Shown here: positions 6,987 through 21,643 of the stretch, in pieces
Layout of the letters: each line of letters begins with the position of its first letter
Position numbering within the stretch: the first letter of the stretch is position 1
From: a virus
Virus record (IMG/VR): IMGVR_UViG_3300020471_000353
Coordinates: 1 to 21,718 of that record
Length of the DNA: 21,718 bases
Strand: one strand, 5' to 3'
Notes under the pieces: model-generated
Databases searched by the model: none
The model's input: only the letters and a program-made list of their open reading frames with translations
Told to the model about the DNA's origin: nothing
Made by a program: the position numbers and the translations under genes

Positions 6987-9900
6987 GTAAAGTTATCGGT
7001 TCTGGTGGTGGTGGCGGAAAAGGTGGAGGTGGAGGAGGTGGTACTCCTACCGAAGCTAAAGATAATCTTGACTCAAAACAATTTGCCAAAGTTTTAGATT
7101 TAATAGGTGAAGGGGAGATTGAAGGATTAGTAGATGGTGCAAAATCTATATTTTTAAATAACACACCATTACAAGCTGCTGATGGCACTTTTAATTTTAA
7201 AGATGTAACTTTTGAAGCTAGAACTGGTACTTCTAGTCAAACTAATATTCCAATAACAAAAAATGTAGAAACTACAAAATCTACAGGATTTTCTACAGTA
7301 GAACAAGCAACACCTAGAGTTGTCCAGATAACAGATTCTAGTGTTGATGCGGTTTCAGTAACTATCACTGTTCCATCATTACAATCTGTCAGTGATAAAG
7401 GAGATATTTTTGGTACAGAGGTTCAGTTAGAGATCGCTGTTCAATATAGTGGTGGATCATATTCAACTGTTGTTTCTGGTAATGCAGGAACTATTACAGG
7501 TAGAACTCCTGACACTTATCAAAGAGATTATTTAATAAATTTAAGTGGTGCTTTTCCTGTCAATATTAAAGTTACAAGAATAACTGCTGATAGTACGTCA
7601 GCTAAATTAGCTAACGAAATTCAATTTAACAGTTATGTAGAAATTAAATATGATCAAAGAACTTATCCTAATAGTGCATTAGTAGGTTTAAAAATTGATG
7701 CAGAACAATTTTCATCAATTCCTACTAGAAAATATTTAGTAAAAGGTATAAAAGTAAAAATTCCTCATAATGCAACAGTTAATTCAGATGGAAGCCTATC
7801 TTATGCAGGAATCTTTAATGGAACACTTGGTGCTGCACAATATACAAATGATCCTGCTTGGTGTTTATACGACCTTCTAACGTCATCTAGGTATGGATTA
7901 GGAGATCATTTACAGGAATCAGGTTTAGATAAATTTAGTTTTTATGCAGCATCAGTTTACTGTTCTCACCAAGTAGATGATGGTACTGGTGCAGGAACAA
8001 CCGAACCCAGATTTAGTTGTAATGTAGCAATTCAAAATCAACAGGAGGCTTACAACGTAATAAATCAGATGTGTTCTGTTTTTAGAGCTATGCCATATTA
8101 TGAGTCTGGTAGTTTGACTATTACACAAGATTCACCAAAAGATTCTAGTTATTTATTTACTTTAGGTAATGTATTGCCACCAGGATTTAGTTATCAAAAT
8201 ACATCTCAAAGAACTAGACCTACAGTTGTAGTTGCTAAATACATGGATTTAGAACTTAGAGATGTTAATTATGAACAAGTTATAGATACAGCAAACCAAG
8301 TCCGATATGGAAGTGTTGTAAAAACTATAGATGCTTTTGCTTGTACAAGTAGAGGGCAAGCGAATCGTTTAGCAAAGTGGTTGCTTTACATGGAAAATGT
8401 GGAGCGTGAGGTGGTAACATTTTCTACTTCAATAGATGCAGGAGTTGTTGTCAGACCTGGACAAATAATAGAGATAGCTGATCCTGTAAGGGCTGGAGAA
8501 CGAAGAGGTGGTCGTATAAGTGCTGCTACAACCACTGCTATAACTGTAGATGATGTAACAGGACTTTCTTTCTCTTCTAACTCTACTTTATCTGTTATTC
8601 TTCCTGATGGTTCCGTAGAAAATAAACCTGTTAGTGGTATATCTGGAAGTGTTATAACAGTTTCACAAGCCTTTAGTTCTGCTCCTAATGTGAATAGTAT
8701 TTGGATTTATCAGACAACAGATATTCTTACATCTACTTGGAGAGTTTTAACTATTAGTGAAGAAAATAAAACAAATCATGTTATTACAGCGAGTGAATAC
8801 AATGTTGGTAAATATAATCATATTGAAAGTGGAATTGCTTTAACATCAAGAGATGTTACTAATTTAGATGTACCACCTCCTTCTCCAACTGGTATTACAG
8901 CAGAAGAAGTTATTTATGAAAATACAGGTATTGCAAGAGTAAAAATTATTGTAAGTTGGACTACTTCTACTGATAATGTTTATGTTAGGTGGAGATATGA
9001 ACAAGGTAACTATACTTCTCGTTCTGTTGAAGGTGCTAAAAGTTATGAAATACAAGATACGATTGCTGGAAATTATACGATTGAAGTTTATAGCGTTAGT
9101 GCTTCTGGTCTAAGATCAACATTACCCAACTCATTAAATCCATTTGTAGCTGTAGGAAAAACTGCTTTACCATCAAATGTAACTGGTGTTAGTTTATTAC
9201 CGATTGATGAGACAAGTGCGATACTAAGTTGGGATCGTGCTACAGAGCTTGATGTGTTGTTAGGTGGTAAGACTTTAATCAGACACTCTAGCAAGACAAC
9301 AGGTGCTCAATGGAAGGATGGACAGAATATTGTTGTAGCTGCTGCTGGAAACCAAACACAAAAAATTGTCCCTTTGCTTGCAGGAACTTATTTAATTAAG
9401 TTTGAGGATGATGGTGGTCGAGAAAGTCCATCACCAGGCTCACAGGATTCTGCTTGGAATAATACTAGAGTTACTACCAATTTACCTGCACCATCTGAAA
9501 GACTTGTTGTAGGAAATGTAGATGAACATACACCAAACTTTACTGGTTCAAAAACAAATACAGTTTATGATTCTTCTTTAGATGCCTTAAAACTAACAAT
9601 AACTAACAATGCAGTATCAACTTCTGGAGAGTATGTTTTTGCTAATTCTGTAGATTTAACACAGCCATATGACGTAAATCTAAGAAAAGTATTAGAAGCC
9701 TCTAGTTTTAACTTAAATAATTTATGGGATGATAGAGTTGATTTAATAGATGATTGGGGATATATAGATCAAGTTGGTGGTGTAACTGAGGCTACGAAAT
9801 GTAATGCTGCTGTTTATGTAAGATCAACAGATGATGACCCATCAGGTTCACCAACATGGAGTGCTTATAAAGAGTTTAGTAATGTTTTAATTACAGGTAG

Positions 9901-10234
9901 AGCATTTCAATTTAAAACAATATTAACAAGTAATGACACTAACCAAAATATAGCTGTCACAAAATTAGGTGCTAAATTAGAATTACAGGGGAGAACAGAA
10001 TCTATTTCGACTCCAGTTACTACTGGATCATCTCAATATACTGTTTCTTTTACTAATCCATTTAAGCAAACACCAACTGTTGTAGTGACTCCGACCAATC
10101 AACAATCTGGAGATTTCCACGAACTTGCTAATATAAGTAGGACAGGTTTCCAAGTCACTTTTAAAAATGGTAGTTCAGCAGTTGCAAGGTCATTTGTATG
10201 GGCTGCATCAGGCTTTGGTAAGGAGGTCACATAA
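6983..10234 (+). CDS. Tail tip attachment / host specificity protein, lambda gpJ-like
   Basis: This 1083-residue protein is close to lambda J (1132). It opens with a Gly-rich segment (residues 7-20, 'GGGGGKGGGGGGG') and then the signature 'AKVLDLIGEGEIEGLVDGAK', 'SIFLNNTPLQAADGTFNF' typical of the J hub domain. The central part has 'NPAWCLYDLLTS'-like and 'NVINQMCSVFRAMPYY' motifs of the baseplate hub ('NDPAWCLYDLLTSSRYGLG'). Two fibronectin-III-like domains fall at about 630-715 and 720-815. The end (about 1008-1083) is a beta domain with 'YTVSFTNPFKQTPTVVVT' and 'WAASGFGKEV', a common terminal domain of J proteins probably exposed to the host. The protein forms the central tail spike and recognises the receptor. 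AGGAGGT near its end serves the next gene. Confidence 0.93.
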   Translation: MSKVIGSGGGGGKGGGGGGGTPTEAKDNLDSKQFAKVLDLIGEGEIEGLVDGAKSIFLNNTPLQAADGTFNFKDVTFEARTGTSSQTNIPITKNVETTKSTGFSTVEQATPRVVQITDSSVDAVSVTITVPSLQSVSDKGDIFGTEVQLEIAVQYSGGSYSTVVSGNAGTITGRTPDTYQRDYLINLSGAFPVNIKVTRITADSTSAKLANEIQFNSYVEIKYDQRTYPNSALVGLKIDAEQFSSIPTRKYLVKGIKVKIPHNATVNSDGSLSYAGIFNGTLGAAQYTNDPAWCLYDLLTSSRYGLGDHLQESGLDKFSFYAASVYCSHQVDDGTGAGTTEPRFSCNVAIQNQQEAYNVINQMCSVFRAMPYYESGSLTITQDSPKDSSYLFTLGNVLPPGFSYQNTSQRTRPTVVVAKYMDLELRDVNYEQVIDTANQVRYGSVVKTIDAFACTSRGQANRLAKWLLYMENVEREVVTFSTSIDAGVVVRPGQIIEIADPVRAGERRGGRISAATTTAITVDDVTGLSFSSNSTLSVILPDGSVENKPVSGISGSVITVSQAFSSAPNVNSIWIYQTTDILTSTWRVLTISEENKTNHVITASEYNVGKYNHIESGIALTSRDVTNLDVPPPSPTGITAEEVIYENTGIARVKIIVSWTTSTDNVYVRWRYEQGNYTSRSVEGAKSYEIQDTIAGNYTIEVYSVSASGLRSTLPNSLNPFVAVGKTALPSNVTGVSLLPIDETSAILSWDRATELDVLLGGKTLIRHSSKTTGAQWKDGQNIVVAAAGNQTQKIVPLLAGTYLIKFEDDGGRESPSPGSQDSAWNNTRVTTNLPAPSERLVVGNVDEHTPNFTGSKTNTVYDSSLDALKLTITNNAVSTSGEYVFANSVDLTQPYDVNLRKVLEASSFNLNNLWDDRVDLIDDWGYIDQVGGVTEATKCNAAVYVRSTDDDPSGSPTWSAYKEFSNVLITGRAFQFKTILTSNDTNQNIAVTKLGAKLELQGRTESISTPVTTGSSQYTVSFTNPFKQTPTVVVTPTNQQSGDFHELANISRTGFQVTFKNGSSAVARSFVWAASGFGKEVT

Positions 10235-10236
10235 TG
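10219..10236 (+). promoter_or_regulatory. Strong Shine-Dalgarno before the first fibre gene
   Basis: The last codons of the J-like gene read AAGGAGGTCACATAATG. A near-perfect Shine-Dalgarno (AAGGAGGT) lies 7-8 nt before the ATG at 10234, which itself overlaps the J stop as TAATG. Most earlier genes in the tail block have little or no such signal, so the first fibre gene may be translated at a higher level. Confidence 0.75.
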
Positions 10237-11196
10237 AGTAATACGTCAGATTATAATTTAGCTAACCAAGTTGGTTCTTCTTTTAGAACCGAACTTAATA
10301 CTGTATTAGGAGATGTTCAGTCTTTAAATAGTGGATCGTCAGATCCTACAACCACTATTGCTTATAAAATATGGGTAGATACTTCAACAAACTTATTAAA
10401 AATTAGAAATAGTTCAAATAATGGTTGGTTAGTTCTAGGAAGTCTGACAGATGCAGCACATACTAATAACTTTGGATTAGCAACAAAAGCTGATCCAGAT
10501 TTTACAGGTACAGTGGATTCTGCTGGTGATATTGTTATGGGTGGTACAGGAGCTTTAAAACTGCCAAATGGTACAACTGCCCAAAGGCCAACAGCAGCTA
10601 CAGGTCAGATAAGATTCAATAATACTACAACAGAATTTGAAGGATATAACGGATCAGCCTGGGGTGGTTTAGCTTCTGGAGTGCCTGTAGGTACAATCCT
10701 TGCTCATGCGGCTAATACACCACCAACAGGATTTTTAGAATGTAATGGATCGAATATTAGTAGATCAACTTATGCAACATTATTCTCTACCATATCTACA
10801 ACATTTGGTGTAGGAGATGGATCATCAACTTTTGCTTTACCTGATTTAAGAGGACAATTTATTAGAGGTTGGGCTAATACTGGCAGTACTGATGCAAGTA
10901 GAGCTTTTGGTTCAACACAAACAGATCAAAACAAAAATCACACCCATACAACAGATTCAACAAGTTTAACTGGTGGTATCAGAAAAATATCAGAAGGTTT
11001 TGGTGCTGGCGGTTCTGCAACTGGTGTATTTACAAAAACAGCAGATGGTAATAACACCATAACAGGTAGTTCCTCAACTAGTCCTGTAGGTGGTGTAGAT
11101 TTCGATGGCACTCACACTCATACAATATCAAGTAGTGGTGGTGGAACTGAGGCACGACCCACAAACCTTGCTTTAATGTACATAATCAAGTTTTAA
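10234..11196 (+). CDS. Tail fibre with phage tail-collar domain
   Basis: This is a 320-residue protein. The N-terminus ('DYNLANQVGSSFRTELNTVL') is followed by a short 'IWVDTSTNLLKIRNSSNNGW' module and 'GTTAQRPTAATGQIRFN' with 'TEFEGYNGSAWG', a common phage fibre module. From residue ~150 a tail-collar domain is clear: 'VPVGTILAHAANTPPTGFL' then 'ECNGSNISRSTYATLF', 'FALPDLRGQFIRGW'. The end has two His-x-His elements ('NHTHT', 'THTHT') and 'GTEARPTNLALMYIIKF', the usual collar C-terminus. In T4 fibre tips, HxH motifs hold iron, so a metal-stabilised trimeric tip is possible here. It sits directly after J and is probably a side fibre or receptor-binding tip. Confidence 0.88.
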   Translation: MSNTSDYNLANQVGSSFRTELNTVLGDVQSLNSGSSDPTTTIAYKIWVDTSTNLLKIRNSSNNGWLVLGSLTDAAHTNNFGLATKADPDFTGTVDSAGDIVMGGTGALKLPNGTTAQRPTAATGQIRFNNTTTEFEGYNGSAWGGLASGVPVGTILAHAANTPPTGFLECNGSNISRSTYATLFSTISTTFGVGDGSSTFALPDLRGQFIRGWANTGSTDASRAFGSTQTDQNKNHTHTTDSTSLTGGIRKISEGFGAGGSATGVFTKTADGNNTITGSSSTSPVGGVDFDGTHTHTISSSGGGTEARPTNLALMYIIKF

Positions 11197-11198
11197 TT

Positions 11199-13259
11199 AT
11201 GACAAATAAAAAGATAACCGAATTTACAGAGCTTACCGCACCAGCGAGTACTGATGTTCTACCGATTATTGATGCAAGTGATACAAGTAACAAGAAGATA
11301 AGTTATGCAAATTTACTAAGTAAAGCTCCAGACGGATCTACTTCTGCTCCTGCATTTAGTTTTAATTCTGATCCAAATACAGGAATAAGTGGAGGGTCAG
11401 ATACTTTAACCTTCAGTACAGGTGGAACTGGCAGAATGTCTATCAGTTCTGCTGGTCTTGTTAATATTCCTGGTGATCTAACAGTAGGCGGTACGACCAC
11501 CACCATAAATACAAGTAATTTAGATGTCGAAGATAAAAATATTACTATTGGTAAGGTATCAACTCCGACTGATACAACTGCTGATGGCGGTGGTTTAACT
11601 CTTAAAGGTGCATCTGATAAAACATTTAATTGGGTAAATGCAACAGATTCATGGACAAGTAGTGAACATTTATCTGTTTCTGGTCAAAAAGAAGTTAGAT
11701 ATTTAGATTCTGATTCATCTCATTATGTTGGTTTTAAATCTCCTGCAACAGTTTCATCTAATGTAGTTTGGACATTACCTTCTGCTGACTCGTCTGTAAG
11801 TGGATATGTTTTATCAAGTAATGCTTCTGGAGTTCTTAGCTGGGTAGCACCTGGTCAAAATGCAGATCCTAACTTTACTGGTACGTTAACTCTTACTGAT
11901 GATGGAAATATTAGAGGATTTGCTTCTACTCAGGCTACATATACTGGATCTGTAAAATCATTTGCTGTTACTGTAGCAAGTAAAACAGCAGCACATAGAT
12001 ATAACGGAAGTGGCTCTAGTAATGGATATGTAATAGATAGTAAGGAAGCACCATTTTTAACTCTCACACCTGGTCGTACCTATAAGTTCGATCAATCACA
12101 TTCAAGTAATACTGGTCATCCTTTACGTTTTTATCTCGAAGCAAATAAAACTACAGCTTATACAACAAACGTAACTGTAAATGGCACAGCAGGTCAAAGT
12201 GGTGCATATGTGCAGATTGTCATAGGGGATACTACTCCGATGGTAATTCATTATCAATGTTCATCTCATGCGTTGATGGGTAATGCGATCCAGACAAACT
12301 CTGCAACAGCTACAGGAACTTTATTGTCCAGCCTAAGTGTTAGTGGAAATATGGATGTTACTGGCACATTTACTGTCAGCGATAATATCTTGATGACGGG
12401 AACAGGAGCTATTGATGTTGCTGCTGGAACTACAGCACAAAGACCAGGCTCTCCTTCTGCTGGTATGTTCAGATTTAATAGTCAGACATCAGAGTTTGAA
12501 GGATACGATGGTAGTGCTTGGGGTGAAATTGGTGGTGCAGCAGCTACTTCGGGAACAGCAGATTTATTAGATATTGCATCATCTTCTGGAACGGGTGGTG
12601 GATCAGCTACATTTAATGGATCTGCTTATAGATTTAAGCTAGTTACAAAAGGCACAAGTACAGCAGTAACACCAATTAATGCAGAAATATTAAGAGTATC
12701 AATCAATGGTGTTATGCAACAGCCTAATGATGGTTCTGGACAGGGAGATATGACAGATGGATATGTTGTAAGCGGTACTGATATTATCTTTGATTCTGCT
12801 CCTCCTAGTGGATCTACATATTTCATCATTAATATGGGAACTCAAGTTGCTGTTGGCAATGCGACTACCTCTACGATTGCTGATGAAAGTTCTGATACAA
12901 CTTGTTTCCCTCTGTTTACCACCGCAGCTACAGGAGATTTAGGTTTAAAGTCAGGATCAAATCTTACCTTTAACTCTTCTACAGGATTATTAACAGCAAC
13001 TACATTTAGTGGATCAGGTGCAAATTTAACTAATTTACCTTCTTCTGCACTTACTGGAGCGTTGCCAGCTATTGATGGGTCAGCATTAACTGGAGTCTCA
13101 TCACAAAAAGCAGATGGCTGCGTTACAGAAAACTCCCTAACAATTTCAAATAATTATACTATGACCACAAACAAGTCAGGTATAAGTGCAGGAGATATAA
13201 TAGTAGCAAGTGGGGTAACAGTTACCATTCCGTCAGGTTCACGTTATGTTATTGTCTAG
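11199..13259 (+). CDS. Mosaic tail fibre with cupredoxin-like module
   Basis: This 686-residue protein starts 2 nt after the collar fibre with no clear Shine-Dalgarno. Modules in order: 'KITEFTELTAPASTDVLPI' anchor (1-50), 'NSDPNTGISGGSDTLTFST' beta repeats (50-100), 'TTTINTSNLDVEDKNITIG' (100-130), a long beta region (130-235), a cupredoxin-like module (about 245-370), 'GTTAQRPGSPSAGMFRFN' with 'EFEGYDGSAWG' (408-445), 'LRVSINGVMQQPNDGSG' beta domain (470-560), and an end module 'ENSLTISNNYTMTTNKSG' to 'TIPSGSRYVIV' (640-686). The cupredoxin-like part has His307 in 'TGHPLRFYLE' and C354-x2-H357-x2-M360 in 'YQCSSHALMG'. The gene's last bases and stop form a TAGGAGG Shine-Dalgarno for the next gene. 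Confidence 0.85.
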   Translation: MTNKKITEFTELTAPASTDVLPIIDASDTSNKKISYANLLSKAPDGSTSAPAFSFNSDPNTGISGGSDTLTFSTGGTGRMSISSAGLVNIPGDLTVGGTTTTINTSNLDVEDKNITIGKVSTPTDTTADGGGLTLKGASDKTFNWVNATDSWTSSEHLSVSGQKEVRYLDSDSSHYVGFKSPATVSSNVVWTLPSADSSVSGYVLSSNASGVLSWVAPGQNADPNFTGTLTLTDDGNIRGFASTQATYTGSVKSFAVTVASKTAAHRYNGSGSSNGYVIDSKEAPFLTLTPGRTYKFDQSHSSNTGHPLRFYLEANKTTAYTTNVTVNGTAGQSGAYVQIVIGDTTPMVIHYQCSSHALMGNAIQTNSATATGTLLSSLSVSGNMDVTGTFTVSDNILMTGTGAIDVAAGTTAQRPGSPSAGMFRFNSQTSEFEGYDGSAWGEIGGAAATSGTADLLDIASSSGTGGGSATFNGSAYRFKLVTKGTSTAVTPINAEILRVSINGVMQQPNDGSGQGDMTDGYVVSGTDIIFDSAPPSGSTYFIINMGTQVAVGNATTSTIADESSDTTCFPLFTTAATGDLGLKSGSNLTFNSSTGLLTATTFSGSGANLTNLPSSALTGALPAIDGSALTGVSSQKADGCVTENSLTISNNYTMTTNKSGISAGDIIVASGVTVTIPSGSRYVIV

Positions 13260-13263
13260 GAGG
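13257..13263 (+). promoter_or_regulatory. Shine-Dalgarno overlapping the fibre stop codon (TAGGAGG)
   Basis: The TAG stop at 13257-13259 is also the first part of TAGGAGG, placed 7 nt before the ATG at 13271. A stop fused to a strong Shine-Dalgarno favours re-initiation on the first gene of the short-fibre array. Confidence 0.7.
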
Positions 13264-13270
13264 TAAAATT

Positions 13271-13825
13271 ATGCCAATAGTATTAAACGGATCAGGAACA
13301 GTAACAGGAATAAGCGTAGGTGGATTGCCTGATGGAATAATACAAAGTGCTGATTTAGCATCAGGAGTCGGTGGTAAAATTCTTCAAATTGTAAATACTC
13401 AAACTGGTGCTATGTCAACTGGTACAACAATAATCCCTAATGATGATACAATCCCTCAAATTACTGAAGGATTTGAAGTAATGACTAGAACTATAACTCC
13501 AACAAACACATCAAATATACTTTTAATAAATGTTGTTTGCCATTTATCAGCTAGTGTTAATAGTATGCCTACAACTGCTTTATTTGTTGGATCAACGGCT
13601 GATGCGTTAGCATCTACATTTAGTCACGCTTTTGGGGCAGGTGCTTATCCAAAAGTTCATAATTTTACTCATAAAATGACGGCTGGATCAACTTCTGAAT
13701 TAACTTTTAGAGTAAGAACTGGAATGAATAATTCTGGAACTGTTACTTTTAATGGTAGGGATGGATCAAGGATGCGTGGTGGATCTGCTGCTTCTTCAAT
13801 AACAATAATGGAGATAGCTGCATGA
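13271..13825 (+). CDS. Short tail-fibre-like protein, adaptor type A, copy 1
   Basis: This is a 184-residue protein. Residues 1-33 are the type A adaptor ('MPIVLNGSGTVTGISVGG', 'LPDGIIQSADLASG'). Residue 35 starts the junction 'GGKILQIVN', followed by a ~148-residue beta-rich body: 'TRTITPTNTSNILLINVVCH', a central variable part, and the conserved end 'SSITIMEIAA'. The same adaptor recurs at 15298. The body recurs behind other adaptors at 13822, 14424, 15298 and 17192. The final codons encode GGAG, and the stop overlaps the next start (ATGA). I do not recognise a named family; the style is that of marine phage structural proteins. A structural or receptor-facing role is inferred from position and beta-rich composition. 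Confidence 0.75.
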   Translation: MPIVLNGSGTVTGISVGGLPDGIIQSADLASGVGGKILQIVNTQTGAMSTGTTIIPNDDTIPQITEGFEVMTRTITPTNTSNILLINVVCHLSASVNSMPTTALFVGSTADALASTFSHAFGAGAYPKVHNFTHKMTAGSTSELTFRVRTGMNNSGTVTFNGRDGSRMRGGSAASSITIMEIAA

Positions 13826-14427
13826 GTCAGATAAAATTATTACATAGCGGTGGAAATGGAGTTATATTAGCTGCACCAAGTTCTAATCCAGCAGCAGATA
13901 GAACCCTTACATTACCTGGTGATGCCGATGGGACGATAGCTACAACTGCAACTGCTGGTAAAATTCTGCAAGTTGTTCAAACAGTTAAAAAAGATAGATT
14001 TACTGCTCAATCACAAACTCCAGTTGATATTACAGGTTTAAGTGTAAGTATTACTCCTAGTTCAGCGTCTAATAAAATCCTAGTACATAGTTCTGTTTAT
14101 GTTAATGGTAATGCTATTTATTATGCAATGCGTTTAGCTAGAGATAGTGATAATACAATTTTTATCGGTAATGTAAACGGTTCAAATACAAGTCAAACTA
14201 GAGCCACTTTTGGAGGTTACATGGCTTCAACTATGGATACACAAACGATTGTAACTTCTTATTTAGACTCTCCAAACACCACATCAGCAACAACATATAA
14301 AATGCAAGTATATTCTCCATATGCTATTTCGTATGTGGTTGGAATTAATAGTACTGTTGCATTAGATAATTACGGATATGTTACAAACGGTACTTCATCA
14401 ATAACAGTTATGGAGGTGGCAACATGA
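13822..14427 (+). CDS. Short tail-fibre-like protein, adaptor type B, copy 1
   Basis: This 201-residue protein is ATGA-coupled to its neighbours on both sides. Residues 1-44 are the type B adaptor ('IKLLHSGGNGVILAAPSSNP', 'ADRTLTLPGDADGTI'). Residues 46-50 give the junction 'GKILQVVQ'. The body contains 'DITGLSVSITPSSASNKILV', 'YAMRLARDSDNTIFIG', 'SYLDSPNTTSATTYKMQV' and 'SSITVMEVAT'. The pattern 'sITP.s.sNKILV ... mRLaRd ... yLDsP.t...TYK.Q ... SSIT.MEVA' is shared with copies C1 and C2. The last codons encode GGAGGTGG 4-5 nt before the next ATG. The same adaptor with a different body appears at 15891. Function is inferred as tail-fibre accessory; no enzymatic motif is seen. Confidence 0.75.
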   Translation: MSQIKLLHSGGNGVILAAPSSNPAADRTLTLPGDADGTIATTATAGKILQVVQTVKKDRFTAQSQTPVDITGLSVSITPSSASNKILVHSSVYVNGNAIYYAMRLARDSDNTIFIGNVNGSNTSQTRATFGGYMASTMDTQTIVTSYLDSPNTTSATTYKMQVYSPYAISYVVGINSTVALDNYGYVTNGTSSITVMEVAT

Positions 14428-15002
14428 GTAGGTTAATAACAAACGCAATACGATCCACTTCTGCTTCAGCAGATGCGATAACATTTGATAACTCTGGCAA
14501 ACCAGCATTTCCAAATGGTGGTGCTGGTAAAATTCTTCAAGTTTTACAAGTAGTGAAAACAGATACACAATCTACGCAATCAACAAGTTATGGCGATGTT
14601 ACTGGTTTATCACAAGCTATAACTACTGTTGCTGGGAGTAAAGTTCTTTGTCTTGGAACTTTCTTTTTTGGATCATCTGCTGCATATAGCACTTGGTTTA
14701 GATTAGTAAGAGTAGATGTAGATGGAAGTACAAATTATCCTTATCTTGGAGATGCGGATAGCTCTGTGACTCGTGCAAGTGCTGGTGCGTATAACAATTC
14801 TTATAACTATGCAGCAGCCAATTCTTCTTTTAATTTTTTAGATACGCCAAGTGGGGCTGGTTCACATACTTATAAAATTCAATGGAAACAAGGTTATTCT
14901 GGTGGATTTACGAGTTATATTGGAAGAGATGCTCAAGGTTCAACTGATGTATCAAGAGGAAGAGTGCCTTCTTCACTTACATTAATTGAGGTGGCAGGAT
15001 AA
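14424..15002 (+). CDS. Short tail-fibre-like protein, adaptor type C, copy 1
   Basis: This 192-residue protein starts in ATGA overlap behind a GGAGGTGG Shine-Dalgarno (14412-14419). Residues 1-33 are the type C adaptor ('MSRLITNAIRSTSASADAIT', 'FDNSGKPAFPN'). The junction 'GGAGKILQVLQVVKTDT' follows, then a body with 'GDVTGLSQAITTVAGSKVL', 'WFRLVRVDVDGSTNYPYLGD', 'FNFLDTPSGAGSHTYKIQW' and the end 'SSLTLIEVAG'. The nearest relative in the window is the type C protein at 17192, which shares the adaptor and 'VKTDT', 'RLVR', 'YPFLGDA', 'YLDSP'. It ends in TAATG with the small gene at 15002. Confidence 0.75.
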   Translation: MSRLITNAIRSTSASADAITFDNSGKPAFPNGGAGKILQVLQVVKTDTQSTQSTSYGDVTGLSQAITTVAGSKVLCLGTFFFGSSAAYSTWFRLVRVDVDGSTNYPYLGDADSSVTRASAGAYNNSYNYAAANSSFNFLDTPSGAGSHTYKIQWKQGYSGGFTSYIGRDAQGSTDVSRGRVPSSLTLIEVAG

Positions 15003-15298
15003 TGGGATTAACTAAAGCACAAGCTAATGGATTAGCTGATACTTCTGTTAGTGCAGGAAGTTATGGTTCTGCTACTGCAATACCAGCTATTACAGTTGAT
15101 GCCCAGGGAAGAATAACTGCTGCATCTACCAATGCAATATCTGCTGGTGGTGAGACAGACTCCATATTTCAAAACCCAATAGCAGCATCAGGAAATATTA
15201 CAGTTGGTACTAATAAAAATGGTATGGTAGCTGGCCCTTTTTCAATGGCGACTTATACTTTAACTATACCTTCTGGATCAGTGTTCACAGTAGTCTAA
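15002..15298 (+). CDS. Small fibre end-module protein (type T')
   Basis: This 98-residue protein has TAATG overlaps at both ends. The N-terminal half is a fibre repeat often seen in phage tail fibres ('SAGSYGSATAIPAITVDAQG', 'RITAASTNAI'). The C-terminal half ('ASGNITVGTNKNGMVAGPFS', 'TLTIPSGSVFTVV') matches the end module of the 686-residue fibre ('NYTMTTNKSGISAGDIIVAS', 'TVTIPSGSRYVIV'). Both modules come just before a type A gene. The gene therefore looks like the tip of a long fibre kept alone, or a minimal fibre that trimerises with a longer partner. GAGGTGG at 14988-14994 precedes the start. Confidence 0.7.
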   Translation: MGLTKAQANGLADTSVSAGSYGSATAIPAITVDAQGRITAASTNAISAGGETDSIFQNPIAASGNITVGTNKNGMVAGPFSMATYTLTIPSGSVFTVV

Positions 15299-15894
15299 TG
15301 CCAGTATCAATCAACGGAAACACAGGAGTAATTACAGGTTTAGCGGTAGGAGGGTTGCCTGATGGAATAGTTGATAGTGATATGATTGCAGCTGGTGTAA
15401 TCCCTGCTGGTGGTAAAGTTTTACAGTATAAACAATATCAAGCAGTAGGTAGTTATTCAACAACCGCAACATCATGGGCAAGTATATCAAGTGATTTTGA
15501 ATTTGATTTACCCAATGTTGCAACTAATGCTAACGTGCTTATATCTTTTTGCGCTCCAAAAGGCTCAAGTAATACTGATACTGTAAGATTTAAAATTGTC
15601 AGAACAAAAGGTGGTGTTTCTACAGATTTAGGAATGAATACTACAGGAGATGGTGTTGGCAGAACTTCAACTATGTCTAACTATGTAGGTGGCGATAATT
15701 CAAACCAAATATTCCATGTTGCATTTCAATGGTGGGATATGGATCCAGGCGGAGATGGTAGCACAACAATAACTTATAAAATACAATGGATAGCTAATTC
15801 TGGACAGACTTGTTATTTAGGACAATCTGACCCTGCATCATTTCAACAACGTGCAGGGGGTACACAAGCCTATGTAGTGGAGTATGCAGCATGA
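15298..15894 (+). CDS. Short tail-fibre-like protein, adaptor type A, copy 2
   Basis: This is a 198-residue protein. Residues 1-35 repeat the type A adaptor ('MPVSINGNTGVITGLAVGG', 'LPDGIVDSDMIAAG'). Bases coding for GGLPDGI are nearly identical to copy 1, with 15 identical nucleotides in a row in 'ttgcctgatggaata'. The junction 'GGKVLQYKQY' starts at residue 39. The body has diverged but keeps the frame of the family: 'TATSWASISSDFEFDLPNVA', 'RFKIVRTKGG', 'STTITYKIQWIANSGQTCYL' and the end 'AYVVEYAA', in which Tyr replaces the usual Val. The last codons give TGGAG before the overlapping ATGA. Structural fibre accessory role inferred. Confidence 0.72.
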   Translation: MPVSINGNTGVITGLAVGGLPDGIVDSDMIAAGVIPAGGKVLQYKQYQAVGSYSTTATSWASISSDFEFDLPNVATNANVLISFCAPKGSSNTDTVRFKIVRTKGGVSTDLGMNTTGDGVGRTSTMSNYVGGDNSNQIFHVAFQWWDMDPGGDGSTTITYKIQWIANSGQTCYLGQSDPASFQQRAGGTQAYVVEYAA

Positions 15895-16529
15895 CAGGAA
15901 AGATTAAACTCGTACATTCTGGTGGCAATGCAGTTTCATTAGCCGTACCAACATCTAACCCTTCTTCAAGTGAGGTTGAACTAAAGCTACCGCAATCCGA
16001 CGGGAGTGCTGATACTTTTTTAAAAACGGATGGCTCTGGAAATTTATCATTTGCTGCTGTTGGTGGAATTACAATGGCCGATCAATGGAGAATTACAAGC
16101 GACTTTAACGTAACTTCGTTTGCTTATATCACATCAAACTGGGAAAGGAATGATGATGATGGTTATGGCAAAATTGGTACAGGAATGTCTGAATCAAGTG
16201 GTGAATTTTCTTTCCCTTCAACTGGCGTATATTTAGTAAGAAGCGTAATTAGCTGGTATCCAAGTGGAGGTGGAGTTAATTATACTCGTATTGGCATACA
16301 TACAACAATTGACAATAGTAGTTATGCCGCTCGTGCTTATTCTTGGTCTGGTGTTGAAGATGCTAATCAGTATAATAATATGACGGCAGAAATTCTTTTT
16401 GATGTGACAGATGTCTCAACACATAAAGTAAAATTTCAAACTGGAGGTTCTAATACTAGACCTAATGTAAGAGGTAGTACTGATGCTAATTACTCATATG
16501 CAACTTTTATTAGATTAGGAGATACATAA
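15891..16529 (+). CDS. Short tail-fibre-like protein, adaptor type B, copy 2, with C1q-like body
   Basis: This is a 212-residue protein. Residues 1-40 repeat the type B adaptor ('IKLVHSGGNAVSLAVPTSNP', 'SSSEVELKLPQSDGSA'). A linker 'TFLKTDGSGNLSFAAVGG' replaces the GGKxLQ junction. The remaining ~150 residues are a different beta domain: 'DQWRITSDFNVTSFAYITSN', 'GYGKIGTGMSESSGEFSFPS', 'TGVYLVRSVISWYPSGGG', ending 'ANYSYATFIRLGDT'. The 'G.FsFPsTGvYLV' core resembles C1q/TNF-like jelly-roll domains used as fibre heads. This copy lacks the terminal MEVA peptide, and the next gene starts 1 nt after its stop without a GAGGTGG signal. The adaptor appears to have been joined to an unrelated head domain. 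Confidence 0.75.
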   Translation: MTGKIKLVHSGGNAVSLAVPTSNPSSSEVELKLPQSDGSADTFLKTDGSGNLSFAAVGGITMADQWRITSDFNVTSFAYITSNWERNDDDGYGKIGTGMSESSGEFSFPSTGVYLVRSVISWYPSGGGVNYTRIGIHTTIDNSSYAARAYSWSGVEDANQYNNMTAEILFDVTDVSTHKVKFQTGGSNTRPNVRGSTDANYSYATFIRLGDT

Positions 16530-16530
16530 A

Positions 16531-16860
16531 ATGGATTTGAAAGGCAGAGCAGACCACATTGAAGATTTTTTAGTTTCATATAGAGGTGGACAATGGTTTG
16601 GTTGGAGTGATTCAAAAAACAAAAATTATGCAAACTTAATAGTGCATGATGGTGGTTCAAAACCTACAGAAAAAGAATGTACAGACGGACTTGCTACATT
16701 ACAAGCTGCTTGGGATTCAGAAAATGATTCATATAAGTCACAACGTAAAGCAGAGTACCCAAGTATTGAAGATCAGCTTGATTCGATCTATCATAATGGT
16801 ATAGATGGCTGGAAAACCACTATCAAAGCTATCAAAGACAAGTACCCTAAACCTAGTTAA
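16531..16860 (+). CDS. Small tail-fibre-associated protein, DQLD family, copy 1
   Basis: This 109-residue protein begins after a 1-nt gap. The N-terminal part ('GGQWFGWSDSKNKNYANLIV', 'GSKPTEKECTDGLATLQAAW') and the C-terminal part ('YPSIEDQLDSIYHNGIDGW', 'IKAIKDKYPKP') match a small phage family often found next to tail fibres, reminiscent of Bacillus XkdW-type proteins. The role is not established; a fibre assembly or attachment function is often assumed. The next gene shares the 'DQLD....W...IKA.KD..PKP' C-terminus with a different N-terminus, so the two are paralogues joined to different fronts. Confidence 0.7.
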   Translation: MDLKGRADHIEDFLVSYRGGQWFGWSDSKNKNYANLIVHDGGSKPTEKECTDGLATLQAAWDSENDSYKSQRKAEYPSIEDQLDSIYHNGIDGWKTTIKAIKDKYPKPS

Positions 16861-16862
16861 TT

Positions 16863-17195
16863 ATGGCGTTAGACCACGAAGCTATTTATGAAGCTTACAA
16901 AACGGCAACAAAACCTGTTGTTTCTATAGACGATACTGCTGGAGCGTTTGCTGCTGACGGATCAAAAGTAACACTCAGCGATACAAAGATAGCTGCTGCA
17001 AGAAAGGCATTAGACGATGCTGCTGCTCTTATAAAATATAAGACCGACAGAACAACTGATGGTTCTACTGTCTATGCTTCTTTAGGAGATCAGTTAGATA
17101 TGTTGTATAAGGATATGGTTGCTGGCAAATTAGATACAACAGGAACCTGGGCTACACATATTAAGGCAGTTAAAGACGCTAATCCCAAGCCATGA
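16863..17195 (+). CDS. Small tail-fibre-associated protein, DQLD family, copy 2
   Basis: This 110-residue protein starts 2 nt after its paralogue. The N-terminal region is 'MALDHEAIYEAYKTATKPVV', 'SIDDTAGAFAADGSKVTLSD'. The helical middle is Ala/Lys-rich. The C-terminus 'YASLGDQLDMLYKDMVAGK', 'WATHIKAVKDANPKP' is shared with the preceding protein. I know this style from marine cyanophage fibre regions but no proven function. The stop overlaps the next ATG (ATGA) without a Shine-Dalgarno, so the type C copy 2 gene relies on coupling here. Together the two DQLD genes look inserted between adaptor types B and C of the second block. Confidence 0.7.
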   Translation: MALDHEAIYEAYKTATKPVVSIDDTAGAFAADGSKVTLSDTKIAAARKALDDAAALIKYKTDRTTDGSTVYASLGDQLDMLYKDMVAGKLDTTGTWATHIKAVKDANPKP

Positions 17196-17830
17196 CCAGT
17201 AGGTTAATTGTTAATAGTATTAGGCACACTGGAGCGTCTAGTGATGCTATTTCACTAGATAGTTCTGGTAATGTTACTTGCAATGGAACAGCTACAGGTT
17301 TTGGTGGTGGTAAACTTCTTCAAGTAAAGCAATCAGTTAAAACTGATACTGCAAGTTGGACAGGTACTTCATTTGTAAACATTGCTGGAACGGATGAAAC
17401 TGGTGCTGGATCTATTTGGGAAGTAAACATAACACCAACAGCAGCTAATAGTAAAATTTTGGTTGAATTTAGTGCAGCAATGGGTTCTAATCTTGGAGTT
17501 ATGATGGCAGTAAGATTAGTTAGAGAAATACAAGATGCAAACCCTGCATATCCTTTTTTAGGGGATGCAAGTGGTAGTTCCCCAAGAGTTTCAAGACAAG
17601 TTCGTGATGACCAAACAGCAATGAAAGTTCATGCTATACATCAAGCACATTTTAGTTATCTTGACTCTCCTAGTTATACTTTAGGAAACAAAATCACATA
17701 TCACTTAGAAGGTATGGGTTATAGTGGAAGTGAAACAGTTTATATTAATAGATCAGGAAGTCAGCAAACAGAAGCCACATATGATGGATTACAAGCCTCA
17801 ACAATAACAGCAATAGAGGTGGCAGCATGA
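17192..17830 (+). CDS. Short tail-fibre-like protein, adaptor type C, copy 2
   Basis: This is a 212-residue protein. Residues 1-38 repeat the type C adaptor ('MTSRLIVNSIRHTGASSDAI', 'SLDSSGNVTCNGTATGFG'). The junction 'GGKLLQVKQSVKTDT' starts at residue 40. The body keeps all family marks: 'EVNITPTAANSKILVEFSAA', 'MAVRLVREIQDANPAYPFLG', 'FSYLDSPSYTLGNKITYHLE', 'INRSGSQQTEAT', ending 'ASTITAIEVAA'. GAGGTGG (17816-17822) in its last codons is 4 nt before the overlapping start of the next gene. It is the longest member of the GGKxLQ body family here and the closest relative of the gene at 14424. Confidence 0.75.
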   Translation: MTSRLIVNSIRHTGASSDAISLDSSGNVTCNGTATGFGGGKLLQVKQSVKTDTASWTGTSFVNIAGTDETGAGSIWEVNITPTAANSKILVEFSAAMGSNLGVMMAVRLVREIQDANPAYPFLGDASGSSPRVSRQVRDDQTAMKVHAIHQAHFSYLDSPSYTLGNKITYHLEGMGYSGSETVYINRSGSQQTEATYDGLQASTITAIEVAA

Positions 17831-18074: not shown

Positions 18075-18392
18075 ATGCCCATAGTGACGTATAAAGGAGA
18101 GAGAGCTACAATAAGCAGTAACACAAGCACACTTGTAAAAGATAGTGCTTTTAATATTGCAAACTTAATCATGTTTCAAAAAATAGCAAATACTTTAAGT
18201 ATTATTTCTTTTCTTATGGTAGCTTCCATGAGTGGTGGAGCATATCTAGGCTACAAATATGTAACATCTGAAAATTTTAAGTCTCAAGTTATGAATGAAA
18301 TCCTTGGAAATATACAGGGTTCTATGCCTAAAGTTTTAGACAATGTAATGCCTCAACAAACAGGTCCATCTATACCTATACCGAAAAAATGA
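18075..18392 (+). CDS. Single-pass membrane protein, unknown (holin candidate)
   Basis: This is a 105-residue protein. Residues ~30-60 ('NLIMFQKIANTLSIISFLMV', 'ASMSGGAYLGYKYVTSENF') form one clear membrane segment with small residues, flanked by a polar N-terminus and a C-terminus 'SQVMNEILGNIQGSMPKVLD' ending 'IPIPKK'. The protein follows the fibre array after a 26-nt gap and overlaps the zinc-ribbon gene (ATGA). One membrane helix, small size and late position would fit a class III holin-like protein. However, no endolysin is next to it, and similar proteins in cyanophages are uncharacterised as far as I recall. I therefore mark holin as a guess only. Confidence 0.6.
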   Translation: MPIVTYKGERATISSNTSTLVKDSAFNIANLIMFQKIANTLSIISFLMVASMSGGAYLGYKYVTSENFKSQVMNEILGNIQGSMPKVLDNVMPQQTGPSIPIPKK

Positions 18393-18556
18393 ATTGTTGG
18401 CACTGTAAAACTGAACTAATCTGGGGTGGAGATGCTGATATTGAAGAAGATTTCCAACCCGTACTATATCAAGAGTATTCAATGGTTACGAATCTTAGCT
18501 GTCCTAAATGCGACTCATATGTAGAAGTCTACCGAAGAAGAGATGCCTACGATTGA
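18389..18556 (+). CDS. 55-residue zinc-ribbon protein
   Basis: This short gene starts at ATG 18389 in ATGA overlap with the upstream stop and ends at TGA 18554-18556. The protein starts 'MNCWHCKTELIWGGDADIEE' and continues to 'YSMVTNLSCPKCDSYVEVYR'. Two pairs of cysteines (C3-x2-C6 and C38-x2-C41) form a classic four-Cys zinc ribbon. Small proteins of this CWHC...NLSCPKC type are frequent in marine cyanophage genomes, mostly unannotated or hypothetical, and their target is unknown. The gene also overlaps the next start by 14 nt, so it is embedded in a tight operon. The Cys spacing and the double overlap make it a real gene despite its size. Confidence 0.85.
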   Translation: MNCWHCKTELIWGGDADIEEDFQPVLYQEYSMVTNLSCPKCDSYVEVYRRRDAYD

Positions 18557-19184
18557 CATACCTCGTTTTCAGATAAACAAGATTCAAATACACGAAATAC
18601 CAATATGGAACTTTAATAATCCAGTAGTAAATCATATAAATAAACCTGTTGTAGATATTCCAGGTTGTGTAAGAGTTCACAGAAATAATTTAACTAGCCT
18701 TATTGACAACCCTAAAGATGAATATGGAACATATACAGAGTGTGGTAACTTCAGTATTCCTAGCTTTGAACCTCTGGAGTATAACCCCAACGAATTTAAA
18801 TACACGCAAGCCGAAACCCCCAATCAGACAGAAGAGTTTGTACCAGAAACAGTAGAACCACCGAAATATGAACCAAAAAAGAAAGAAGATAAACCGCTTT
18901 TCGTTGAGTGCCCTGGGCCTAATGACCAGAGAGTAGGCCAATATGCTTCAGAGTTTAAACTGGAACGTGTGTCTGGGCATAAAAGAAGCGAAGATGGTAG
19001 TAAATGTATAACGCTTTATGAAGACGTTAAATTCATCGAGCAATACATACCGAATCCTCCACAGCTTGTTAGTACTGCTGTTATTGCTACTGTTGCTGCC
19101 TCTACTCCATTACTGCTTAATATTGTCAAACCTTTAATAAAAAACCTGTTTAAAAAATTAACTAAGAAAAAGGAAGAGAAGTAA
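18543..19184 (+). CDS. Pro-rich membrane-anchored protein, unknown
   Basis: This 213-residue protein starts inside the zinc-ribbon gene. Residues 1-40 are Ile/Asn-rich ('IDIPRFQINKIQIHEIPIW'). Residues 75-120 are Pro/Glu/Lys-rich ('VEPPKYEPKKKEDKP'). Residues ~120-170 form a compact part 'VECPGPNDQRVGQYASEFKL', 'GSKCITLYEDVKFIEQYIP'. Cysteines are C42, C67, C123 and C155, an even number that could make two disulfides. A membrane helix at ~174-198 ('LVSTAVIATVAASTPLLLNI') is followed by a very basic tail ('KKLTKKKEEK'), which predicts a C-terminal anchor with the basic end in the cytoplasm. I recognise the style from cyanophage genomes but no function. It may be membrane- or virion-associated. 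Confidence 0.65.
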   Translation: MPTIDIPRFQINKIQIHEIPIWNFNNPVVNHINKPVVDIPGCVRVHRNNLTSLIDNPKDEYGTYTECGNFSIPSFEPLEYNPNEFKYTQAETPNQTEEFVPETVEPPKYEPKKKEDKPLFVECPGPNDQRVGQYASEFKLERVSGHKRSEDGSKCITLYEDVKFIEQYIPNPPQLVSTAVIATVAASTPLLLNIVKPLIKNLFKKLTKKKEEK

Positions 19185-19575: not shown

Positions 19576-20544
19576 ATGAAAACAAATTTACTTGTTAATA
19601 ATTTGGTTAAAATCGAAAGAAACCAAGATTATTCAAATGTCAAAATTAGTATTGAAACTATAGACAAAAGAAAAGCCTTAGAATATTTAGACAAAAACTT
19701 TAAATTCAATCGGACTATTACAAGGCGATCTATAGAAAACTATGCTAATCAAATGAGAAATGGCGATTGGGTTTTGTCGTGGGATGCTATAGCTTTTAAC
19801 ACAAAAGGCGAACTTATTAATGGTCAACATCGTTTAAGTGGTCTTATAGAAGCTAATACAAGTTGTGAGTTTTTTGTTATCAGAGACTTGCCTCATAAAA
19901 CGGCACAATATTCTGATAATGGCAGAAAACGAACTCAATCAGAACGTATCACTATTGCTGGCACTCCTATGCACTCGAAATCTTGTAGTGCTATAAAAAA
20001 TGCTTTTACAGATTTTAAAGGTAAAGGATTAGGTCAAGCCTTGTATGCACATACACGATTTGATACTGATATTGCAAAAATTTATAAAAGACATAGTAAG
20101 TTTTTTGAGCGTTTAGAAGATAAAGGCTATGTCAAAAACAAACAAGCTACTGTTTTTCTAATATCAGCAGCTTTTAAAATTTTCTTAGAGCTTACAACTC
20201 CAGAACATAATCATAGTTGGGATGATGCTTTTAATAGAGCTACATTTTTCATGCAACTTGTTTATCATGGTTATTCAGATGAATATATGATAGATAATGA
20301 GACTGATTTATCTCCATTAAAGTTAAAAGAATTTTTAGAAATGCGAAAATCTAGGAATTTAAGTACAGCAGATATGAAAACTTTTAAAGCCTATATAATT
20401 ACAGCACATCAATTTATGTTGTATAAAGTAAATAAAGTTTTAAGAGTTGAAAGACAACATACTATTGACCCATTTCCATCTGTAGATACTTACAAAGCTA
20501 CAAATAATCTTTGTGAGTCTTATAAAACTGAAATGGCTTTATAA
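19576..20544 (+). CDS. ParB-like nuclease-fold protein (GQHRL type)
   Basis: This is a 322-residue protein. Residues ~25-130 show the ParB/Srx-superfamily pattern as seen in many phage and mobile-element proteins: 'FKFNRTITRRSIENYANQMR', 'NGDWVLSWDAIAFNTKGELI', 'NGQHRLSGLIEANTSCEFFV' with the hallmark N-G-Q-H-R-L at about 82-87, then 'DNGRKRTQSERITIAG'. The remaining ~190 residues are helical and include 'LEMRKSRNLSTADMKTFKAY'. GQHRL is the phosphate- or nucleotide-binding loop of this superfamily. Members may bind DNA, cut nucleic acids, or hydrolyse nucleotides, so an exact activity cannot be read here. There is no ParA partner in the window and no parS-like repeat, so plasmid partitioning is not supported. 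It begins 2 nt after its upstream neighbour. Confidence 0.75.
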   Translation: MKTNLLVNNLVKIERNQDYSNVKISIETIDKRKALEYLDKNFKFNRTITRRSIENYANQMRNGDWVLSWDAIAFNTKGELINGQHRLSGLIEANTSCEFFVIRDLPHKTAQYSDNGRKRTQSERITIAGTPMHSKSCSAIKNAFTDFKGKGLGQALYAHTRFDTDIAKIYKRHSKFFERLEDKGYVKNKQATVFLISAAFKIFLELTTPEHNHSWDDAFNRATFFMQLVYHGYSDEYMIDNETDLSPLKLKEFLEMRKSRNLSTADMKTFKAYIITAHQFMLYKVNKVLRVERQHTIDPFPSVDTYKATNNLCESYKTEMAL

Positions 20545-20946: not shown

Positions 20947-20978
20947 GTAGATAAGTGTAATACCCGTGACTTATCTAC
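20947..20978 (-). terminator. Hairpin at the end of the - strand gene (probable terminator)
   Basis: The perfect 10-bp arms GTAGATAAGT (20947-20956) and ACTTATCTAC (20969-20978) enclose 12 nt. The stem overlaps the stop codon (20975-20977) of the - strand gene. On the - strand the hairpin is followed by an AT-rich tail (ATTATTATTTT) without a clean T run, so it may be a weak or non-canonical terminator, or an RNA 3'-end protector. Confidence 0.55.
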
Positions 20979-21643
20979 TGGCCTATTTTTAGTTCGTGAG
21001 TGTGCGGTATAACTTGATTTGGTTTTGGAGCTATACGGACTCCTTCGCATAATTTTGCAAACTGACTTTTAGGATCAAAATATATACCAGCCAACATAAG
21101 TTCACCACAATTTTTTAGTCTAGCTATCTCATAATTAAGCATCTTTGCATTTAATTCTTGTTTTTGTAGTTTTATTTGTGTATTAGCTGCATTAAGACAA
21201 GAATCTTGAAATCTATTATCTAAAGGAATATTGAATGTAAAAGCAAATCCAAAATTAAGTCCAAGAGAATCCTTGTTACCACTATAGTTTTCTTGATAAT
21301 AAAGTATATTTCCTGGATTATCTGGCACGTTATCATTGTTGGCATCTGTATTGTCGTACACAGGCGTATGATAAATATAATCTTGAGGCCGTCTTTGGTT
21401 AAATGTTGTAGTAACAAAAGGGCTAAATCCCATCTGTGGGCCAGAACAAACTATTCCATTTCCGTATTGATTCTCAACCATAGGGCCACCTAAAACTTGT
21501 GTTGCAAAGTTAGACACTGAAGATGAGGATTGAGCTACAGGAGCAGCCGTATTGCTGGTATTAGCAAATACAGGATTACTTATAAGACTTATTGCGAGAA
21601 GATAGTTGTGGTATCTGTGACGCTTGTGCTTTCTATGGTTCGT
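20975..21643 (-). CDS. Secreted protein, unknown, with probable ACG start
   Basis: Read on the - strand from ACG at 21643 the product has 222 residues. It opens with a basic n-region (N-H-R-K-H-K-R-H-R), a hydrophobic stretch 'YLLAISLISNPVFA' with likely cleavage after residue 27, and an Ala/Ser/Thr-rich mature start. The rest includes 'FATQVLGGPMVENQYGNGIV', 'DNTDANNDNVPDNPGNILYY', 'SLGLNFGFAFTFNIPLDNRF' and the helical 'NAKMLNYEIARLKNCGELML'. The signal peptide lies upstream of the first conventional start (GTG 21517, 180 aa), which would remove it. No ATG, GTG or TTG occurs in frame between 21517 and the window edge. I recall similar proteins in cyanophages starting M-N-R-K-H, which fits ACG in the ATG position. 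Function unknown; export to the periplasm or outer membrane is likely. The DNxxDxNxDNVPD segment may bind calcium. Confidence 0.65.
   Translation of the reverse strand, partial: TNHRKHKRHRYHNYLLAISLISNPVFANTSNTAAPVAQSSSSVSNFATQVLGGPMVENQYGNGIVCSGPQMGFSPFVTTTFNQRRPQDYIYHTPVYDNTDANNDNVPDNPGNILYYQENYSGNKDSLGLNFGFAFTFNIPLDNRFQDSCLNAANTQIKLQKQELNAKMLNYEIARLKNCGELMLAGIYFDPKSQFAKLCEGVRIAPKPNQVIPHTHELKIGQ

Follow-up and report, generated by a model that had tools for sequence, protein, structure and literature searches.

A probable receptor-binding array of slot-specific adaptors and exchangeable heads behind the tail fibre of a marine virus

Why should a virus carry, directly behind its long tail fibre gene, two successive runs of short tail-fibre genes in the same order? 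The question is raised by IMG/VR virus record IMGVR_UViG_3300020471_000353, which was analysed over its whole length of 21,718 bases (the window). A preliminary description of this DNA recognised a T-A-B-C block present twice and proposed either segmental duplication followed by divergence or a modular array of adaptors docked at different places on the tail tip. The answer that now appears probable is an array of receptor-binding proteins in which the docking slots are fixed and the heads can be exchanged. Each short gene would encode a C-terminal head and, ahead of it, an N-terminal adaptor of ∼35 to 50 amino acids (aa) that determines which slot is occupied (A, B, or C/F of either block). 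The adaptors would remain in their slots, and whole head cassettes would be replaced by recombination between the GKILQ codons and the gene end, the latter anchor also containing the ribosome-binding site of the following gene. Such swaps would move heads from slot to slot and also across the divide between podoviruses and siphoviruses.

The fibre gene and all array genes lie on the plus strand. The fibre (11199..13259, 686 aa) has no head of its own and ends in a B-like shaft module and a T end module that makes up its last ∼54 aa (∼13096-13259, matched by a T module hidden Markov model); matches to its N-terminal region are nearly confined to siphovirus-type contigs. Block 1 continues with A1 (13271..13825), which has adaptor A (MPIVLNGSGTVTGIS.GGLPDGI) and a TNF-like head starting at GGKILQ, and with B1 (13822..14427; adaptor B, MSQIKLLHSGGNGV) and C1 (14424..15002; adaptor C/F, MSRLITNAIRSTSASADAI), both with TNF-like heads. 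Block 2 starts with T' (15002..15298), a 98-aa mini-fibre of fibre-shaft sequence and a T-type end module, followed by A2 (15298..15894; slot-specific adaptor A, MPVSINGNTGVITG.AVGGLPDGIVD, and a TNF-like head), B2 (15891..16529; slot-specific adaptor B, MTGKIKLVHSGGNAV), two DQLD proteins that are putative fibre assembly chaperones, D1 (16531..16860) and D2 (16863..17195), and C2 (17192..17830; slot-specific adaptor C, MTSRLIVNSIRHTGASSDAI, and a TNF-like head). The GKILQ-to-gene-end cassette is found in five of the six headed genes (A1, B1, C1, A2, and C2); B2 lacks the GKILQ junction and carries a head of a different family (ADQWR...FIRLGDT), which in other contigs also occurs on A, B, and C adaptors. 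Most of these genes overlap by ATGA or share TAATG; A1 is preceded, and D1 flanked, by short gaps. The open reading frames therefore bear out the units T-A1-B1-C1 and T'-A2-B2-D1-D2-C2 where they were first placed, their organization as separate coupled genes in two blocks, and the three N-terminal adaptor classes with their named motifs.

When IMG/VR was scanned with A, B, and C2 as queries, 154 distinct sequences were obtained (including the window), and searches of these with module profiles found related arrays in most of them. The commonest block pattern is T-A-B-D-C/F, and the complete two-block form, T-A-B-C/F-T'-A-B-D-C/F, is present in ∼18 contigs, some of which are near-copies of each other. 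The order A, B, C/F is kept in all 124 blocks that have at least two adaptors, as against 28.5% of shuffled blocks, so that the preserved order first noticed in the window is general and no unordered combination was encountered among these blocks. The arrangement is also present in the cultured Prochlorococcus podovirus P-SSP7, whose gp17 fibre ends in a T module and is directly followed by A, B, C/F, D, and C/F genes (PSSP7_037, 038, 039, 040, and 041, respectively), with the same adaptors as in the window, including a nearly identical A adaptor, and the same head family; unlike the window, P-SSP7 has a single block and a T7-like tail. The term “P-SSP7-type adaptor array,” as defined in this analysis, denotes a T module followed by A, B, and C/F in that order with a D gene within the array, and the window array belongs to this class. 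The two-block form is found both in T7-like contigs, recognised by internal core or fibre N-terminal proteins, and in siphovirus contigs with gpJ or tape measure homologues, which argues that the array is not tied to one tail tip. In certain other marine arrays (L152, L122, L151, L153, L162, and L163), the same heads are found on other N-termini, such as MSQLKVNSIVPVGGLPSG, indicating that further slot types exist.

Slot specificity was assessed by identity matrices and permutation, as adaptors of ∼38 aa offer too few sites for slot-by-slot trees. Among the two-block contigs, adaptors and T modules are 66 to 96% identical within most slot groups and ∼20 to 55% identical in most comparisons between slots, the exceptions being the podovirus T1/T2 pair and the A1 adaptors of podoviruses and siphoviruses (68% each). 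For 93% of the adaptors the nearest neighbour occupies the same slot, compared with 19% after permutation, and the mean adaptor identity is 67% within and 24% across slots; for the heads of the same contigs the corresponding means are 36% and 35%. From these statistics, taken together with the nearest neighbours of the heads (given below), the adaptors stay put and the heads move, with a weak memory of their slots.

Individual heads bear this mobility out. Of the between-contig head pairs with at least 80% identity, 107 have both heads on adaptors of one class, and 70 have them on adaptors of two different classes. The head of the window B1 protein shares 96% identity with a C/F-slot head in contig L085; that of C2 shares 87% with a B-slot head in the same contig and 84% with an A-slot head in L161; and that of C1 shares 84% with a B-slot head of the T7-like podovirus contig L045. 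The P-SSP7 A head, in turn, has a 96% identical counterpart in a contig that encodes a gpJ homologue. Across the 69 distinct cross-class swaps, the stretch of matching DNA runs from a median of −1 nucleotide (nt) of the GK codon to a median of −2 nt of the stop codon; 66 of these fit junctions at both ends (the GKILQ codons and the stop codon), and in same-slot control pairs the similarity mostly continues into the flanks. In B1, the swapped DNA starts at the 5' junction at approximately 13955..13975 (GGTAAAATTCTGCAAGTT, encoding GKILQV), and the 3' junction at approximately 14409..14427 (ATGGAGGTGGCAACATGA) comprises the head end, a GGAGGT ribosome-binding site (a role read from the sequence), and the C1 start. 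Synonymous codon choice at the 5' junction is common to all adaptor classes (Leu is encoded by CTT in 71% of cases versus a 25% background), whereas conserved motifs within the head show little such bias. At the 3' end of the head, GAG GTA GCA is favoured and places GGAGGT ahead of the next start codon, so this junction would double as a ribosome-binding site, and the 5' junction would serve as a reading-frame anchor. A site-specific recombination site at the junction was considered and rejected: the anchors are short and coding, their synonymous positions vary, and no recombinase was seen next to the window array, so that ordinary short-homology recombination suffices.

Frequent movement of heads between slots would also be expected if only one or a few of the array proteins were in use at a time, the others forming a reservoir of heads for recombination, and the overlapping genes could indeed all be expressed without all being assembled. 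However, the reading frames of the slots remain open, their adaptors are conserved, ribosome-binding sites are retained, and the order is invariant; such conservation is unexpected for unused genes, and a reservoir of this kind is decidedly improbable.

Did the second block arise by duplication of the first? Within the window, all like pairs are more similar than expected by chance (shuffle z values of 28 for C1/C2, 20 for A1/A2, 11.5 for T/T', 11 for D1/D2, and 7.8 for B1/B2, the last being limited to the first ∼40 aa). Cross pairs also score high (16 for B1/C1, 13.5 for B1/C2, and 12 for A2/C2), because most heads belong to one family. When the window proteins were split at the GKILQ motif and their parts compared separately, the adaptors alone paired like with like (51% identity for A1/A2 and 50% for C1/C2), but the heads did not: the A1/A2 heads are 22% identical, no closer than cross pairs, which span 19 to 35% (31% for A1/B1 and 35% for B1/C1), with C1/C2 at 36%. 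The pairwise comparison of A1/A2, B1/B2, C1/C2, and T/T' against cross pairs thus upholds the initial suggestion of segmental duplication and divergence for the adaptors and fails it for the heads, that of B2 belonging to another family. Tandem copying of the whole T-A-B-C block with subsequent divergence of entire proteins, which would dispense with head exchange, accounts for the identical order of the two blocks, for the adaptor identities, and for the 68% identity of T1 and T2 in podovirus contigs, which would favour an origin of block 2 by tandem duplication there. It is contradicted for the heads by the A1/A2 value, which lies below most cross pairs, by the foreign B2 head, and by the near-identical heads found on unrelated adaptors in many contigs. 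In siphovirus contigs, moreover, T1/T2 identity is just 32%, and A1 has more in common with podovirus A1 (68%) than with A2 (53%), which suggests exchange between tail types, i.e., an acquired second set. On the head identities and the siphovirus T1/T2 and A1 comparisons, strict tandem duplication of entire proteins was rejected, and copying of the whole block is improbable as an explanation of the array.

Most of the heads themselves are predicted to have a TNF-like lectin fold. A1 matches the Pfam domain PF05475 (Pgp3 C-terminal domain) with 28.1 bits against a cutoff of 25; this profile did not match members of the B class. The AlphaFold monomer model of B1 contains a confident beta head (predicted local distance difference test score [pLDDT] mostly above 90), whose best structural matches are the Pgp3 C-terminal domain (E = 2.4e-7) and two TNF-like lectins, PLTL and BC2L-C. 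Searches of PDB sequences with A1 alone and with C2 alone gave nothing usable, whereas a profile of the B proteins matched residues 497-656 of chain AE in PDB entry 9efk (E = 7.8e-34). This chain is the 658-aa protein orf22, whose C-terminal end belongs to the same head family, and the presence of 18 chains in the entry points to six trimeric fibres, each tipped by this head. Most of the array heads probably form trimers that bind cell-surface sugars. The matches to soluble lectins and to chlamydial Pgp3, a secreted protein of the same fold, could also mean that the array proteins act as secreted lectins or modify the infected cell instead of being built into the virion, but their genes sit between the fibre and D genes, adaptor B also occurs within the long fibre shaft, and the head family is found at the ends of long fibres, all of which makes a secreted role extremely improbable.

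As virion components, the array proteins would have to dock somewhere. The adaptors are probably docked on the distal T-module end of the fibre, on T', or on one another. The alternative raised at the outset, with every adaptor bound directly to its own tail-tip site and several short fibres arranged around the tip, agrees with the slot specificity and high conservation of the N-termini and with the several short side fibres known from other phages. Yet the podovirus and siphovirus contigs that share arrays have unrelated fibre N-termini and tail proteins, and what they share next to the arrays is the fibre end (T) and D. With such different tail-attachment parts, the array is more likely to be associated with the fibre end, and direct docking on the tail tip is rather unlikely.

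The D proteins probably help the fibres to fold; a chaperone role is plausible by analogy with the fibre chaperones of Alteromonas phage V22 and cyanophage Pam3 (PMC7289586, PMC9608196). Both D1 and D2 match phrog_9114, a family with no assigned function. The D2 model is mainly helical with a small hairpin (pLDDT 96). Tail-fibre chaperone profiles of the Phage_tail_APC, XkdW, and DUF4376 types did not match either protein, D2 giving just a below-cutoff match to DUF2379 and D1 nothing above the cutoff.

Several observations weigh against an array of fixed slots and exchangeable heads. The nearest neighbour of a head lies in the same slot in 34% of cases versus 19% after permutation (P = 0.003), a weak signal showing that heads are exchanged with some restriction. 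Because of the relatedness of the contigs, the 124 ordered blocks and the 69 swaps do not represent independent events. Selecting pairs with unlike N-termini favours a 5' boundary near GK, although the 3' boundary is not imposed by this choice. Of the 81 D family members, three match Phage_tail_APC and one matches XkdW, and a fold search with the D2 model found no significant match (nothing better than E = 2.7, with XkdW, PDB 2hg7, at E = 6.9). Finally, no virion, binding, or structural data for the array proteins were found in the literature, nor any virion data for P-SSP7 genes 037-041.

The window also encodes a siphovirus tail module with a tape measure protein, minor tail proteins, and a 1083-aa gpJ. 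The top-scoring relatives of gpJ among cultured phages are those of Prochlorococcus siphoviruses MED4-117 and MED4-184/P-HS2 (38 to 39% identity over 94 to 97% of the length), which makes a picocyanobacterial host likely. A comparison of the array A proteins with bacterial and archaeal genomes gave a single short match, in a metagenome bin, and no indication of the host. MED4-117 (L176, locus 9634-11708), among the closest cultured siphoviruses, encodes gpJ, a single fibre of 582 aa, and a single D protein but no array; as the closest cultured Prochlorococcus siphoviruses lack it, the array may have been gained in the lineage of the window virus.

Downstream of the array, positions 18075-18392 encode a protein of 105 aa that contains a hydrophobic segment and has a match to phrog_568 (E = 1e-15); the label of this family, plasmid stability, is probably wrong, since homologues occur in 33 of the searched sequences. 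The proline-rich protein encoded at 18543-19184, with a hydrophobic C-terminal segment, belongs to phrog_570 (E = 7e-41), which is also found in siphovirus contigs and in MED4-117/P-HS2; P-SSP7 042, located behind the P-SSP7 array, has a similar look. The 322-aa phrog_5931 protein (19576-20544) resembles, by eye, a ParB-type nuclease. The sole minus-strand gene with family-match support (20975-21517) belongs to phrog_848 (E = 6e-64), a family with no annotated function, and its frame is open to the window end.

The preliminary description knew of no named system like this one, which is roughly right, but the long-sequenced P-SSP7 carries the same array, its genes being annotated as uncharacterized or tail fiber proteins; no description of genes 037-041 as an array was found in the literature. 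Branched multi-spike phages, such as CBA120 and G7C, join several receptor-binding proteins, in their case large tailspikes, via N-terminal adaptor domains. To our knowledge, the adaptor domains of these phages and of Klebsiella phage phiKp24 are unrelated to those of the array, and we know of no report of head exchange between slots in any of them. The accessible part of the phiKp24 study likewise describes multiple receptor-binding proteins assembled by N-terminal adaptor domains (PMC9700779). Modular receptor-binding proteins and shared host-recognition modules are already known (PMC10579305, PMC10684548). In Alteromonas phages V22, A5, and P24, a host-recognition module of fibre and chaperone is found in unrelated tail types, but there one fibre and one DUF4376 chaperone move together, as opposed to single heads being swapped on slot-fixed adaptors (PMC10579305). 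The accessible part of a survey of receptor-binding protein mosaicism reports shuffling of the C-terminal parts of fibres and spikes, also across families, and describes neither fixed-order adaptor arrays nor exchange between slots of one genome (PMC10684548). Cyanophage Pam3 has in common with the array a TNF-like fibre domain and a chaperone encoded by a gene of its own (gp24/gp25), but its fibre is single, with a glycine-rich tip and a helical N-terminal dock, a likeness without demonstrated sequence relation (PMC9608196). The open-access literature searched yielded no account of adaptor slots in a set order whose heads are exchanged from slot to slot, and the array is apparently a widespread but undescribed variant, in marine phages, of modular phage receptor-binding proteins.

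A broader proposal, for and against which the case is evenly balanced, is that marine podoviruses and siphoviruses share one pool of receptor-binding heads, the anchors (GGTAAAATTCTTCAAGT and the overlap of ribosome-binding site, stop, and start) letting heads enter any of up to six slots in frame, so that one virion would display several independently replaceable specificities. The parts of the array are recognisable from sequence alone; they give a testable function to P-SSP7 genes long listed as uncharacterized and constitute a natural collection of compatible adaptor-head combinations, useful for studying the construction of phage fibres. Prochlorococcus and its phages are a model for the coexistence of hosts and viruses through changes in surface receptors. 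If the reading of the array is true, fixed slots with swappable heads would give host-range variation a concrete origin that is common to different tail types, suggesting how such viruses may keep changing their attachment targets.

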